Source: a bacterium
GTDB lineage: Bacteria; Planctomycetota; J058; JAJDCP01
DNA: 5,054 nucleotides
Reading direction: 5' to 3'
Assembly: GCA_030428695.1 (NCBI GenBank)
Contig: JAUIEM010000541.1
Span: 1-5,054 of the forward strand
Shown piece after piece: positions 3 to 4,672 of this stretch. The position numbers and the translations under genes are program-made. The notes under the pieces were generated by a model, which was not told the origin of the DNA, ran no database searches, and worked only from the letters and a program-made list of their open reading frames with translations. Each line of letters begins with the position of its first letter. Position 1 is the first letter of the stretch.

Positions 3-1841
3 GCGGCCTGTCTCGAGAACGTCGTCGGGGACATCGAGATCCCCGAGCATCCGATCGTGCGCGAGACGATGCGCGACTGCCTCGAGGACTTCATGGACAT
101 CGGCGCGCTCGAAGAGCTGCTGCGGCAGATGGCCGGGGACGAGCTCGAGCTGATCGCGGTCGACAGCGTCGAGCCCTCGCCGCTCAGCCACGAGCTGCTC
201 AACGCGAACCCCTACGCCTACCTCGACGAGGCGCCGCTCGAAGAGCGCCGCTCGCGGATGGTCGCGACCCGGCCGGGGCTCGACCTGCACCCGGCGTCGG
301 TGATCGACGGCGACGCGATCCGGCAGGTCGAGGAGCAGCTCAAGCGCCATCCGCGCGACGCCGAAGAGCTTCACCTGCTGCTGCTCAACCGCTGCCTGCT
401 GCCGCTGCCCGAGCTCGCCCGCGGCCTGGCCGTCGAGCCCGGCGGGCTCGACAGCGCGCGGCGCTGGTTCGCGGACCTGGTCGCAGAGGGGCGGGCCCTG
501 CGCGCGACCTGGAGCTGCGAGGGGGCCTCCCGCGAGGGCTGGCTGGCCCGCGAGCGCGCCGAGCTGGTCGCCGCCGCCCTGGCCGGGGCGGTGCTGACGC
601 CGCCGCCGACGCTCGGCCCGGCGGATGACGAGGACGAGGCGCGGCAGCGCGTCGTCTTCGGGCTGTGCGAGACCCGCGGCCCCCTGCGGGTCGAAGAGGC
701 GGCAGCGCTGCTCGGCATGCCGGCGGGGCAGGTGCGCCAGGCCCTGCTCGGGCTCGAGACCAAGGGCAGCGTGATGCGGGGGAACTACCGCGGTTACGGC
801 GAAGAGTGGATCGAGAAGAGGAACCTCCAGCGCATCCACAAGCTGACCCTGCGCGGCCTGCGCAACCGCGTGCGGGCGGTCACCCCCGAGCGCTTCTGCG
901 CCTTCCTGCGCTCCTGGCAACACGCCGCCGAGGGCCGGCGGCTGTACGGCGCCGAGGGCCTTGCCGAGCTCGTCGAGCAGCTGCAGGGCCTCGAGCTCGA
1001 GGTGCGCCAATGGGAGAGCGAGGTCTTCGCCGCCCGCTGCGACGGCTACCGGAACGAGTGGCTCGACGCCCTGTGCTACGCCGGCGAGGTGGTCTGGGCG
1101 CGGCGTGGGCTGCGCGACGGCATCGCCCAGCGCCGCCCGCTCAAGGTCGGCCTGTTCTTCCGCGACGAGGTCAGCGCCTGGCTCGAGCCGGTCCCGGACG
1201 AGCTCCCGGCGCTGTCCGACAAGGCGCGGACCGTGCTGCGCTTCCTCGACGGCGCGGGGCCCTCCTTCCAGGGCGCGATCGAGCGCGGCGCCAGCCTGCT
1301 GAGCTGCGAGGTCGAGGACGCGCTGTTCGAGCTCGCCTGGGCCGGCCTGGTCAGCGCGGACGGCTTCGCCGCCCTGCGCAGGCTGGTCGGCGGCCCGCGC
1401 AAGAAGCCCACCCGGCTCCCGCGTCGGGGGCTGCGCCGGGCCGGCCTGCGCGGCGGCCGCCTGCCGGCCGGCGGGCGCTGGTCGCTCTTGCGCCGTGAGC
1501 TCGCCCCGCGCCCCGAGGCGGACGTCTGCGCCCGCCAGCTGCTCGTCCGCTACGGCGTGGTCTTCCGCGACGTGCTCGGCGTCGAGACGCGGCTGCCTCC
1601 CTGGCGCGAGCTGCGCTACGCCCTGCGCCGGCTCGAGGCCTCCGGGCAGGTGCGCGGCGGGCGCTTCGTGCGCGGCTTCAGCGGCGAGCAGTTCGCCCTG
1701 CCCGAGGCCGCCGCCGCCCTCGAGGCGCGGCGGAGCGCGCTGTTGCAGGGGGACGAGCTGCCAGCGAAGGATCCCCTCGGACTGCTGATCCGGCAGCTGC
1801 TGACGAAGGCGCACGGGGCGAGCGTGGGGGTGGGGGCCTAG
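3..1841 (+). CDS. lhr: Lhr-family ATP-dependent DNA helicase, C-terminal part (5' end off window)
   Basis: Superfamily 2 helicase of the Lhr type, a 3'-5' DNA translocase linked to DNA repair. The frame is open to the left edge and the residues before the GTG at 57 (GDIEIPEHPIVRETMRDC) are typical Lhr sequence, so 57 is not the start. 612 residues are visible. The helicase motor domains lie outside the window. Seen here is the DEAD-associated region with its signature NPYAYLDEAPLEERR (about residues 69-83), then a long tract that fits the tandem winged-helix C-terminal domain of long-form Lhr (about 1500 residues in Escherichia coli), including GGRFVRGFSGEQFALPEA at 552-569. After the DPLGL match (590-594) the protein ends within 18 residues in a Gly/Val/Ala tail, whereas long Lhr proteins as I recall them continue into a further C-terminal segment. 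Partner genes upstream cannot be seen. The family call is firm; domain boundaries are approximate. Confidence 0.9.
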   Translation, partial: AACLENVVGDIEIPEHPIVRETMRDCLEDFMDIGALEELLRQMAGDELELIAVDSVEPSPLSHELLNANPYAYLDEAPLEERRSRMVATRPGLDLHPASVIDGDAIRQVEEQLKRHPRDAEELHLLLLNRCLLPLPELARGLAVEPGGLDSARRWFADLVAEGRALRATWSCEGASREGWLARERAELVAAALAGAVLTPPPTLGPADDEDEARQRVVFGLCETRGPLRVEEAAALLGMPAGQVRQALLGLETKGSVMRGNYRGYGEEWIEKRNLQRIHKLTLRGLRNRVRAVTPERFCAFLRSWQHAAEGRRLYGAEGLAELVEQLQGLELEVRQWESEVFAARCDGYRNEWLDALCYAGEVVWARRGLRDGIAQRRPLKVGLFFRDEVSAWLEPVPDELPALSDKARTVLRFLDGAGPSFQGAIERGASLLSCEVEDALFELAWAGLVSADGFAALRRLVGGPRKKPTRLPRRGLRRAGLRGGRLPAGGRWSLLRRELAPRPEADVCARQLLVRYGVVFRDVLGVETRLPPWRELRYALRRLEASGQVRGGRFVRGFSGEQFALPEAAAALEARRSALLQGDELPAKDPLGLLIRQLLTKAHGASVGVGA

Positions 1842-2129: not shown

Positions 2130-2174
2130 GTGAGATGCCAGGGTCGGCCCATCGGCCGAGCGCCCGCCTCTCAC
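2130..2174 (-). terminator. Nested stem at the 3' end of the DUF523-DUF1722 gene
   Basis: Three arm pairs nest around one loop: GTGAGA (2130-2135) with TCTCAC (2169-2174), GGG (2141-2143) with CCC (2163-2165), and TCGGCC (2144-2149) with GGCCGA (2154-2159). That makes 15 paired positions in 45 bases with small bulges. The outer arm covers the TGA stop of the gene. It could serve as a transcription end or a 3' stabilising stem. There is no T-run, so the call is tentative. Confidence 0.35.
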
Positions 2175-3130
2175 ACCGTGTTCAGCAACATCATCTCCCG
2201 CGGGTGCGGCTCGAGGTAGATCTGCTCGGACAGGTAGCTGCCGCCGACCTTCTTCTGGAAGTAGCGCATCAGCGTGATCGGCACGATCAGCGGCACGAGG
2301 CCGGTCCGGTAGGACTCGATGCTCGCGTGCAGCTGCTCGCGGTCGAAGTCGTCGAGGGACTTCTTGAAGAAGCCCGCCAGGTGCTGCAGCACGTTGGTGT
2401 GGCGTTTGCGCGTCCCGACCCGGCACAGGGCCTCGAAGAAGCGCACGGCGTAGCGGTCGAGCACGTCCTCGAGCGCGTGCTGGCTCGCGTCGGCGACCAG
2501 GCGCCCGAGCTCGCGCATCACGACCTCGTCGCGGACCATCAGGAGGAATTTGTGCCGCCCGTGGAAGTCGCTCAGGGCCCGCCGGCTCGGGGCTTCCCGC
2601 AGCTTCCGCCAGCGGGCGTGGCAGTAGACCCGGACGATGAAGGCCTCGCGCAGGAGCGGATCGTGCAGGCGGCCCTCCTCCTCGAGCGGCAGGAGCGGGA
2701 AAGCCGCGCGCAGGGCGGCGGCGAACAGGCCGGAGCCGGTCGGGTCGGGCATGCCCTTGTCGTTGTAGACCTTGACCCGGAAGAGCCCGCAGCTCGGCGA
2801 GCCCTTCTTGAGGATGAAGCCGTCGAGGCCCTCGGCGCGCAGCTCTTCTACCCGCGTCGCGGAGAAGCCGCTCATGTCCTCGGTCAGGTCGCGGCCGTCG
2901 CTCGGCACGACCATGCGCGGCGCGTCGGGGTCGCCGACGAGGCGTAGTGTGGGCCGCGGCACACCGAGCCCGACCTCGACCTCCGGGCAGACCGGCACGT
3001 ACTCGAAGTACTGGCCGAGCGTCCCGGTCAGGTAGCGGTCGCGTTTGTGCCCGCCGTTGTAGCGCACCTCGTTGCCGAGCAGGCAGCTGCTGATGCCGAT
3101 CCGCAGGCGCGCTTCCGGTTCTTCCGCCAT
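2171..3130 (-). CDS. DUF523-DUF1722 fusion protein (TudS/YbgA type)
   Basis: A 319-residue cytoplasmic protein with two known domains. Residues 8-150 match DUF523, the family of TudS, which removes sulfur from thiouracil or thiouridine monophosphate using a [4Fe-4S] cluster held by three cysteines. The three expected cysteines are present at C16 (SSCLLG), C48 (PVCPEVE) and C114 (SPSCGL). Residues 180-310 match DUF1722, known as YbgA in Escherichia coli, with FHGRHKFLLM (189-198), NVLQHLAGFFKK (246-257) and YRTGLVPLIVPITLMRYF (274-291). The role of DUF1722 is unsettled. The ATG at 3130 is chosen because a perfect AGGAGG lies six bases upstream; the in-frame GTG at 3157 has no such site and overlaps the predicted -10 box. 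The gene diverges from the DUF2878 gene. Domain assignment is firm; the desulfidase reaction is inferred from the family. Confidence 0.92.
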   Translation of the reverse strand: MAEEPEARLRIGISSCLLGNEVRYNGGHKRDRYLTGTLGQYFEYVPVCPEVEVGLGVPRPTLRLVGDPDAPRMVVPSDGRDLTEDMSGFSATRVEELRAEGLDGFILKKGSPSCGLFRVKVYNDKGMPDPTGSGLFAAALRAAFPLLPLEEEGRLHDPLLREAFIVRVYCHARWRKLREAPSRRALSDFHGRHKFLLMVRDEVVMRELGRLVADASQHALEDVLDRYAVRFFEALCRVGTRKRHTNVLQHLAGFFKKSLDDFDREQLHASIESYRTGLVPLIVPITLMRYFQKKVGGSYLSEQIYLEPHPREMMLLNTV

Positions 3131-3136
3131 CGCTTC

Positions 3137-3142
3137 CCTCCT
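3137..3142 (-). promoter_or_regulatory. Shine-Dalgarno site fixing the DUF523-DUF1722 start
   Basis: Reads AGGAGG on the minus strand, with a six-base spacer to the ATG at 3130. This consensus site decides for ATG 3130 over the longer GTG start at 3157. Confidence 0.8.
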
Positions 3143-3155
3143 CGCGTCCACTCGC

Positions 3156-3184
3156 ACTCTAGTGTCTTGCCTATGTTTTGTCTA
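3156..3184 (-). promoter_or_regulatory. Candidate sigma70-type promoter for the DUF523-DUF1722 gene
   Basis: On the minus strand, TAGACA (3179-3184, 5 of 6 matches to the -35 consensus) and TAGAGT (3156-3161, 4 of 6 matches to the -10 consensus) are separated by exactly 17 bases. This places transcription start roughly 20 bases before the ATG at 3130, just ahead of the ribosome binding site. It lies in the most AT-rich stretch of the window. Housekeeping promoters in high-GC bacteria vary, so this is moderate support only. Confidence 0.45.
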
Positions 3185-3230: not shown

Positions 3231-3764
3231 ATGAAGGCCGCGATCAACATTGTAGCCTTCCAGCTCGGCTGGTGGTGCTGTGTGCTCGGCGCGGCCCGGG
3301 GCGGGCCCTGGCTGGGCCCGGTCTTCGCGCTCGTGTGGCTGCCCCTGCACCTGCGCTTCTTCGGGCTCCGCCGCGAGGCCGGCCTGGTCGCGGTGTGTGT
3401 CCTGTTCGGGGGGCTGCTCGACAGCGCGGTGATGGTCGGCGGCTTCGTCGCCTATCCGCCCGGTTTCTGGCTCGCGCCGCCGTGGATCTGGGCGCTGTGG
3501 GCGCTGTTCGGGACCACCCTGCACCACAGCATGCGCTGGCTGCGCCGGCGCTGGCTGCTCGGGTTGGTGCTCGGGGCGATCTTCGGGCCCCTCGCCTACC
3601 GGGGGGCGGCCGCGCTCGGAGCGGTCACCCTGCCTCGCTCGGAGGGCCTGACACTGCTCGTGCTCGGGCTGGTCTGGGGCGGCGCGATGCCGCTGCTCGG
3701 CGCTCTCGCCGGGCGTTTCGAGCCGCGCCGGGCTCAGTCCTCGCCCGCGCAGCTCCTGCAATAG
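3231..3764 (+). CDS. DUF2878 family integral membrane protein
   Basis: A 177-residue inner-membrane protein of unknown biochemical function. It begins directly with the family-like stretch NIVAFQLGWWCCVLGAA (residues 6-22) and shows six likely membrane helices at about 5-21, 26-44, 50-74, 84-98, 108-130 and 138-160. DUF2878-type landmarks are GLLDS (61-65), the LWALFGTTLHHSMRWLR tract (89-105) and GPLAY (119-123). The length is normal for the family. The 16-residue polar tail after the last helix is encoded over the end of the convergent cysteine-rich gene (31-bp overlap). The gene is divergent from the DUF523-DUF1722 gene, with 100 bp between the two ATGs. From memory, DUF2878 genes in gammaproteobacteria often lie with cyclopropane-fatty-acid synthase-like, DUF1365 and photolyase genes; none of those are visible here. 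Family call confident, role unknown. Confidence 0.87.
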   Translation: MKAAINIVAFQLGWWCCVLGAARGGPWLGPVFALVWLPLHLRFFGLRREAGLVAVCVLFGGLLDSAVMVGGFVAYPPGFWLAPPWIWALWALFGTTLHHSMRWLRRRWLLGLVLGAIFGPLAYRGAAALGAVTLPRSEGLTLLVLGLVWGGAMPLLGALAGRFEPRRAQSSPAQLLQ

Positions 3765-4672
3765 GTCGCCTCCGGGTCCTGCTTGCGCAGGGCGTGGCAG
3801 GCCTTGCAGAACACGTACTCGCCGCGCATGTAGCCCAGGTCGCAGTCTTCGCACCAGCCGTCTGCCTTCATCGCCTTGTAGCAGCTCGCGCAGGCCGCGC
3901 TGAGCTCGCCGTACCAGCCGACGCCGCAGTCGGTGCACCAGCCGCCGTCGGGGTTCTTCATGTTCGCGAGGCAGCCCTGGCACCAGGCCATGTTGCCCTT
4001 GTAGTGGCCGACCTCGCAGGTCTCGCACCAGCCGCCTTCCGCCGCGCGCATCAGCCCGTAGCAGCTCTTGCACTCGGTCGTGTAGCCGTCGGTGTGGCCG
4101 ACGCCGCAGCCTTCGCACCAGCCGCCCTCGTCGCTCTTCATCATGCCGTGGCAGTCGCGGCAGCCGACCGCCTGGCCGTAGACGAAGCCCTGGCCGCTGT
4201 CCTCGCACCAGGCGTCCTCGCGGACCGCGGTCAGGCACGCCTTGCAGCTGAGCTCGAGGTCGTAGTAGTGGCCCGTGTCGCAGGTCTCGCACCAGCCGCC
4301 TTCATCGGCGCACTTCGCGGTGTGGCAGCCGCGGCAGGCGACCTTCTCGGACCAGAAGTAGCCCGACTTGCAGGTGTCGCACCAGCCGTCGGCCATGTAG
4401 GCCTCGTAGCATCCCTGGCAGCTGAACTTCTCGGCTCCGTAGTAGCCGACCTTGCAGGCGTCGCACCAGGCGCCGTCCCAGCCTGCGCGGGCGTCGAAGC
4501 AGGTGCGGCACTTCTCGCGGGTGCCGTCCCACAGGATCCCGCTCTGGCAGCCGTCACACCAGTAGGCGTCATCGAGCTCGGTCAGCGTGTTGCAGGCTTC
4601 GCAGCCGTCCTGCGCCGCGAGCGGCACCGCGAGCAGCGCCAGCACGCAGAGCATCCCCATCCACCGTGTCAT
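3734..4672 (-). CDS. Secreted cysteine-ladder protein, ten ~30-residue double-CxxC units
   Basis: A 312-residue protein I cannot assign to a named family. Residues 1-20 form a Sec signal peptide (TRW, then a hydrophobic core ending VPLAA; cleavage likely near A20). The rest is ten units starting at C24, C55, C85, C113, C143, C171, C201, C231, C261 and C289. Each unit is about 28-31 residues, with consensus C-x2-C-[YHLF]-x(8-10)-W-C-x2-C-x2-G-[YH]. CxxC pairs therefore recur nearly every 15 residues (sometimes 13), with 19 of 20 pairs intact and 40 cysteines after the signal. Unit 5 has Ser159 in place of a cysteine and unit 4 has an extra C121. The spacing resembles zinc-ribbon knuckles, but export argues for disulfides or extracytoplasmic metal binding. 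The start is ATG 4672, with AGGAGG four bases upstream. It overlaps the DUF2878 gene by 31 bp and lies 87 bp downstream of a methyltransferase gene on the same strand. The reading frame is certain, the function unknown. Confidence 0.88.
   Translation of the reverse strand: MTRWMGMLCVLALLAVPLAAQDGCEACNTLTELDDAYWCDGCQSGILWDGTREKCRTCFDARAGWDGAWCDACKVGYYGAEKFSCQGCYEAYMADGWCDTCKSGYFWSEKVACRGCHTAKCADEGGWCETCDTGHYYDLELSCKACLTAVREDAWCEDSGQGFVYGQAVGCRDCHGMMKSDEGGWCEGCGVGHTDGYTTECKSCYGLMRAAEGGWCETCEVGHYKGNMAWCQGCLANMKNPDGGWCTDCGVGWYGELSAACASCYKAMKADGWCEDCDLGYMRGEYVFCKACHALRKQDPEATYCRSCAGED
4014..4039 (-). repeat. 26-bp exact repeat, copy in unit 7 of the cysteine-ladder gene
   Basis: Identical to 4278-4303. 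It encodes the EGGWCETC core of unit 7. Exact DNA identity, not just protein similarity, suggests recent duplication or gene conversion between units. Confidence 0.8.
4278..4303 (-). repeat. 26-bp exact repeat, copy in unit 4 of the cysteine-ladder gene
   Basis: Identical to 4014-4039 and 264 bp away, equal to 88 residues or exactly three units. It encodes the EGGWCETC core of unit 4. Confidence 0.8.

Follow-up and report, generated by a model that had tools for sequence, protein, structure and literature searches.

What might an exported bacterial protein built from a long, regular series of CxxC pairs be used for? The question was raised by a gene in a 5,054-nt stretch of Planctomycetota DNA (the window), for which an initial annotation had proposed an exported cysteine ladder that was either metal-binding or disulfide-braced. 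Cysteine-rich metal stores have been seen mainly as cytoplasmic, because thiols oxidise in the envelope.

A ten-unit CxxC ladder encoded in the window

The ladder gene occupies positions 4672..3734 of the minus strand and encodes 312 amino acids followed by a stop codon, comprising a signal peptide and ten units of about 30 residues. The annotation had located the feature correctly at 3734-4672, leaving its strand unstated. GC3 reached 0.95 in the ladder frame, and the remaining minus-strand frames gave 0.56 and 0.55; the ladder frame is therefore very probably translated. The protein begins with a hydrophobic signal peptide (approximately residues 1-20; 4613..4672, minus strand), consistent with the proposed export. 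Cleavage at LAA/QDG was judged by eye, and no lipobox was seen in this leader by eye.

All ten units lie on the minus strand. Unit 1 (residues 24-54; 4511..4603) carries CEAC...WCDGC, unit 2 (residues 55-84; 4421..4510) CRTC...WCDAC, unit 3 (residues 85-112; 4337..4420) CQGC...WCDTC, and unit 4 (residues 113-142; 4247..4336) CRGC...WCETC together with one additional cysteine (C121). In unit 5 (residues 143-170; 4163..4246), CKAC...WCEDS, the fourth cysteine position is occupied by Ser, giving the sole broken pair. Unit 6 (residues 171-200; 4073..4162) carries CRDC...WCEGC, unit 7 (residues 201-230; 3983..4072) CKSC...WCETC, unit 8 (residues 231-260; 3893..3982) CQGC...WCTDC, and unit 9 (residues 261-288; 3809..3892) CASC...WCEDC. 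Unit 10 (residues 289-312; 3737..3808) contains CKAC...YCRSC, and the chain ends four residues further on.

As the annotation had counted, 19 CxxC pairs are intact, the twentieth being C156-x-x-S159. When residues from position 21 onward were shuffled 10,000 times, the mean was 5.3 pairs and the maximum 14. The first cysteines step by 15 residues, with 16 at two places and 13 at three, if the broken pair is included; the odd-to-even steps, again counting C156, are 15, 15, 13, 15, 13, 15, 15, 15, 13, and 16. Trp precedes the even pair in nine of the ten units and Tyr does so in the tenth, and, with the broken pair counted, x-x-Gly follows nine of the ten even pairs, all as first described. The claim that odd pairs are followed by Tyr, His, Leu, or Phe held in nine units and failed in the first, where Asn is found. 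DNA identity between units ranged from 0.46 to 0.70, and the array therefore does not reflect recent duplication.

The ladder defines a family centred on Planctomycetota

When the window protein was compared in a single-sequence search with 5.8 billion proteins, 1007 candidates were returned, none at E <= 0.001. A Pfam search (E up to 1) gave DZR_2 (PF18912) alone, at 13.5 bits under a gathering threshold of 27, and searches of NCBIfam and PDB gave chance-level matches only. Plasmids and phages contained no match to the ladder at E <= 0.1, and no paper on the family was found in openly licensed PMC text. Relatives were first recovered only with a DNA pattern for the ladder, W-C-x-x-C-x-x-G ... 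C-x-x-C ... W-C-x-x-C-x-x-G, which matched six times in the window and not once in 200 window shuffles. In the genome collection it identified 17 loci, nine of which (L038, L040, L044, L045, L047, L048, L050, L051, and L052) were true ladders. These came from eight genomes, including five of Planctomycetota, one Candidatus Scalindua, and one Rhodospirillaceae MAG; L040 and L051 share one Planctomycetota genome. The other eight loci were rejected as low-complexity, repeat, or chance frames, and 36 loci found with a looser pattern in viral contigs were judged to be noise.

Profile searches extended this set. An alignment of long ladders (A1) matched one protein, a fragment of the L044 ladder, and an alignment of six short members (A2) yielded 50 matches (E <= 0.01), three or more of which were the query's own records. 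A profile of 26 members (A3) matched at least 29 of 294 Planctomycetota genomes, a lower bound in that scoring covered about the first 15 candidates from each genome, and a count that includes four genomes known beforehand (G001, G003, G004, and G008). By eye, the WCxxC..G motif, at times in variant form, was recognised in all 29 alongside CxxC partners. Outside Planctomycetota, two of 785 genomes from four phyla matched, both being genomes around which the samples had been drawn: the Rhodospirillaceae MAG, alone among 249 genomes of its phylum (a binning error could possibly account for the ladder there), and the genome of L048, alone among 47 of its own phylum. A third candidate, L145, the single hit among 240 genomes from the phylum to which a Verrucomicrobiaceae MAG belongs, was rejected as a cytoplasmic-looking double zinc ribbon protein. 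None of 249 genomes matched in the phylum of a Paenibacillus, a sample without a positive control. With the window protein itself as query, 15 of 392 Planctomycetota genomes were matched (best E 5.2e-49, with 45% identity over about 197 residues).

Comparisons with hhalign joined long ladders, short ladders, and a wide-spaced subfamily at 99.4% and 98.9%, figures that cysteine richness may inflate. The final set comprised 77 members, the window protein included, with 264 units. Deduplication of this set removed only entries with a shared C-terminal 60 residues or containment, and the extraction rule missed or excluded L083, L088, L089, and L092, which by eye are true relatives. Homologues with varying unit number had been predicted, and members were found with one to ten units; the ten of the window protein is the highest value, other relatives having one to eight, and the lone one-unit entry (P0039) looks truncated. 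By a crude rule, a hydrophobic N-terminal segment was present in 72 of the 77 members, 34 of them lipobox-like; the remaining five were fragments or artefacts of the rule. Profile matches to PRDM9 C2H2 zinc-finger arrays (E 0.0002) were dismissed as a coincidence of Cys/His spacing, and no stretch passed alone. Judged from sequence, these proteins are a real family, mainly of Planctomycetota. The ladder pattern is kept by relatives in other genomes, and, as the annotation had anticipated, the Pfam and NCBIfam models do not recognise it. Its centring on Planctomycetota, together with the odd-then-even parity and the genes for thioredoxins, efflux, and ECF factors beside some ladders (both described below), went beyond that annotation.

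Odd and even half-sites probably form one four-ligand unit

The units follow the pattern CxxC-x(8-13)-[W]CxxCxxG[YF]xxG. Column counts over 193 units, left after 28 gappy ones had been removed from the 221 in the alignment, gave the consensus CKSCKKAKAENGWCDGCKVGYVAGKKTKC. Conservation of the cysteines, of W/F, and of the first Gly is partly built in by the seed pattern; outside that pattern, the second Gly is conserved at 81% and the Y/F following the first Gly at 80%. In most ladder proteins the first half-site is odd and the last is even. In the wide-spaced subfamily, the odd-even spacing is 13-14 and the even-odd spacing mostly 34-39, and P0041 contains two isolated odd-even units. This start and end parity, the subfamily spacing, and P0041 point to an odd half-site and the even one after it as the likely four-ligand unit. 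Nineteen odd half-sites had no cysteine 8-14 residues downstream, a number of these lying in fragments or extended frames; the unit count includes a few half-sites in upstream frame extensions (for example, in L093). In L072, the even half-site comes first, with H-S-H before it.

For the window protein, AlphaFold predicted a regular repeat, mostly with good confidence (mean pLDDT 85.5, pTM 0.66). pLDDT was at least 90 at 176 of 312 residues, and ten-residue blocks between residues 41 and 300 scored 85-97; in the model of P0024, residues 61-130 averaged 94-97. The predicted order of the repeat is strand, CxxC knuckle, hairpin, and CxxC at the start of a helix. Small metal folds are hard for Foldseek, which gave no PDB match at E <= 0.001 for either model. 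PDB matches found by VIA-align were not significant for either model, and viral structures gave no match at E <= 0.001.

In the treble-clef finger, a knuckle is followed by a hairpin and a helix, and the ligand pairs sit on the knuckle and the helix of one finger. The predicted order of knuckle, beta-hairpin, and CxxC helix in the ladder would fit this fold, and even-odd pairing of treble-clef type would equally suit the model; the parity of the ladders and the lone units favour odd-even pairing. Double zinc ribbons (PF18912, PF07191, and PF17032) likewise pair two CxxC knuckles at a distance of about 13-15 residues, and an aromatic residue often precedes the second. Both of their knuckles lie on beta-hairpins, whereas a helix is predicted right after each odd CxxC of the ladder. 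The ladder also differs from them in being exported, by prediction, and in forming long tandem arrays.

Ligand substitutions favour metal over disulfides

In the 264 units, the fourth position was Cys in 231, His in 12, the chain end in 5, Ser and Lys in 3 each, Asp, Thr, Ala, and Gly in 2 each, and Arg and Pro in 1 each. His thus accounted for 12 of the 28 non-Cys residues, compared with a background of about 2.5%; the corresponding p value of 1.5e-12 is descriptive only, because units share ancestry. A metal site tolerates His as a ligand and a disulfide does not, so the concentration of Cys-to-His swaps at one position makes metal sites likelier than disulfides. Both Asp residues occurred in L044 and were counted in favour of metal; counting against the metal reading, 14 of the 28 residues were neither His nor Asp. 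The two options left side by side by the initial annotation were in this way narrowed, with metal now favoured.

Further features of the relatives, namely His-rich linkers, an HMA-like tail, and weak matches to zinc families, were also counted in favour of metal. His-rich linkers (at least five His per 30-residue stretch) were present in 6 of the 77 members. The C-terminal domains of the long ladders L045, L052/L059, P0007, and P0011 align together and are HMA-like, without the CxxC of HMA. HMA scores were below the Pfam cut-off of 24.8 for L059 (20.5 bits, E 0.00066) and P0007 (20.3 bits, E 0.00076), and Pfam detected no HMA in the other two of the four tail-bearing proteins, L045 and P0011, nor in the window protein. 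Weak Pfam matches of the 26 A3 members fell into 17 families, ten of them zinc families by name; the most frequent was DZR_2, in 8 of the 26 (best E 0.00032).

Some relatives adjoin thioredoxin, efflux, and ECF genes

Neighbourhoods were examined in 31 regions from 30 genomes, and linkage was counted over 27 ladder loci from 26 genomes for two families, PF03190 and RND, that had been picked after viewing the loci. A full-length PF03190 gene was found within 3 kb of the ladder at three loci (0.04 expected) and any PF03190-like gene at four (0.12 expected). An RND gene was found within 5 kb at four loci (0.85 expected, p 0.011), a weak signal taken alone. Overall, 6 of the 27 loci had a PF03190-like gene or an RND gene within these distances, and 21 had neither.

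At L122 and L123, genes for an ECF sigma factor, an anti-sigma factor, the ladder, a PF03190 thioredoxin (exported by eye), an RND pump, and an adaptor run in one direction, and L123 additionally has a TolC-like gene. The sigma, anti-sigma, and adaptor calls at L122 were made by similarity to other loci, and the two loci look like a single ancestral operon. L108 contains ECF, zf-HC2 anti-sigma, and ladder genes before a contig end cuts the locus, and L110, L125, and L126 likewise have ECF genes no more than 1 kb upstream of the ladder. In L105 (7058-10536), a ladder lipoprotein, a thioredoxin-reductase-like gene (TIGR01292, 313 bits versus a cut-off of 343), and a lipoprotein-like PF03190 thioredoxin follow one another in one direction. 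A Thioredoxin_7 gene, its product exported by eye, adjoins the ladder in L109, and the ladders of L106 and L127 stand beside RND and adaptor genes. The RND pumps scored below every NCBIfam class cut-off and therefore cannot be called metal pumps. The RND and ECF/anti-sigma genes near some relatives suggest a part in the handling of metal or thiol stress.

Within the 5,054-nt window, the ladder has no thioredoxin, RND, or ECF neighbour, and the genes around it offer no functional link. At the start of the window lies the C-terminal part of an Lhr-type helicase (3-1841, plus strand; DEAD_assoc and WH2-WH4_Lhr), open at that edge, whose best match among 149 Planctomycetota genomes was 44% identical over nearly its full length. 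It is followed by a gap containing a short tandem run of the CGGGAT hexamer (1871-1897), a fusion of a 2-thiouracil desulfurase-like domain (PF04463, DUF523) with DUF1722 (2171-3157, minus strand), and a DUF2878 membrane protein (PF11086; 3189-3764, plus strand), which is convergent with the ladder gene and overlaps its 3′ end by 31 bases. A methyltransferase-like fragment was recognised by eye.

A putative exported metal-thiolate array

The export signal, the repeat structure, the family, the swap pattern, and the linkage seen at some loci are shown; from these patterns we infer metal binding, odd-even pairing, a reduction step, and a buffering role, and we judge it moderately probable that the ladder is a modular, multi-site thiolate metal binder acting outside the cytoplasm. 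Each unit of about 30 residues would offer four ligands, from the odd CxxC, where a short helix would begin, and from the even [W]CxxC, placed in a beta-knuckle before the hairpin. Together these would bind a single metal ion of soft or borderline character, such as Zn, Cd, or Cu(I). The window protein could then hold up to ten ions, with just three Cys ligands in unit 5, and capacity would scale with unit number. The thiols would have to remain reduced outside the cytoplasm, which in several relatives could be accomplished by the exported thioredoxin encoded next door. Tentatively, the family may represent a dedicated extracytoplasmic metal store of Planctomycetota, an expandable four-ligand thiolate array with its own exported DsbH-type thioredoxin and a link to ECF-controlled RND efflux. 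Such a store would correspond to a metallothionein that is folded and exported, with repeat number setting its capacity, a proposal that we regard as possible rather than probable.

The metal might instead serve folding only, with metal-stabilised knuckles forming a stiff extracellular or periplasmic spacer, adhesin, or scaffold. The regular repeat predicted with good confidence by AlphaFold would suit such a protein, variation in unit number is typical of spacer proteins, and the 34 lipoprotein-like members could anchor a scaffold. Many members, however, have two or three units only, which is short for a spacer, and a structural metal leaves the His-rich linkers, the HMA-like domain, and the thioredoxin linkage unexplained; we consider it unlikely. 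A third possibility is that the WCxxC pairs alternate between dithiol and disulfide states, buffering thiols or relaying electrons, with the DsbH-type thioredoxin and, in one relative, thioredoxin reductase as partners. Trp before CxxC resembles the thioredoxin site, PF03190 proteins that are exported by eye adjoin the ladders of L105, L122, and L123, the reductase-like gene of L105 sits between the ladder and the PF03190 gene, and the Thioredoxin_7 neighbour of L109 also points this way. This role appears rather improbable: Pfam found no thioredoxin family in the window protein, for which a fold of repeats of about 30 residues each is predicted, His at the fourth position of 12 units would abolish the CxxC redox pair, and a redox array has no need of strict four-Cys spacing.

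The ladder's predicted export, its richness in Cys, and its tandem CxxC pairs would also be expected of a disulfide-braced surface protein, similar to the CXXC-rich coats of protozoa. Chlamydiae are relatives of planctomycetes. Disulfide cross-linking of the chlamydial envelope (PMC6752827) was counted in favour of such a coat. We nevertheless regard it as very improbable, given that the Cys-to-His swaps are concentrated at one position and that weak profile matches lean to zinc families. Moreover, the linked PF03190 family carries the name of chlamydial DsbH, characterised as a reducing periplasmic oxidoreductase (PMC5193440). The Giardia VSPs and other protozoan CXXC proteins (PF03302) share surface location or export and many CXXC motifs with the ladder, and Pfam gave no match of the window protein to PF03302 (E up to 1). 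The protozoan proteins are stabilised by metal and/or disulfides (PMC6341118), and the comparison is an analogy only.

Among known systems, the putative thiolate metal binder would share multi-metal thiolate storage, by analogy, with the metallothioneins. Metallothioneins are Zn/Cd/Cu thiolate buffers. Pfam matched none of their families to the window protein and one of 26 relatives to Metallothio_Euk (E 0.026); the ladder further differs from them in its apparent export, its modular units, and its Trp/Gly framework. The DsbH/PF03190 thioredoxins, neighbours in some relatives, are candidate partners and no homologues of the ladder. Small Cys4 metal knuckles are known; what would be new is an exported tandem array of them in such a genomic setting. 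If the proposal is true, a direct test becomes feasible for a reduced thiol-metal pool maintained by bacteria beyond the cytoplasm. A name and a profile would also become available for recurrent exported proteins of Planctomycetota that were unrecognised by Pfam and NCBIfam in the searches made.

Additional observations were made in individual relatives. An L-D-x-H-G-H motif is conserved between the units of the wide-spaced members L087, L090, L091, L093, L094, and L096, and a similar motif occurs in P0035, P0046, and P0051. In L127 (2399-5847), and at the same places in L051, the ladder lipoprotein lies near a YeeE/YedE-type sulfur-transport gene (PF04143), and a TusA-like frame was recognised there by eye as well. 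Finally, a frame in L088, with no obvious signal peptide, adjoins a TPR-like region (by eye) and contains a ladder-like unit, CTCDVG...WCYDHNRGWVDG...CWRC, that includes a C-x-x-H pair.
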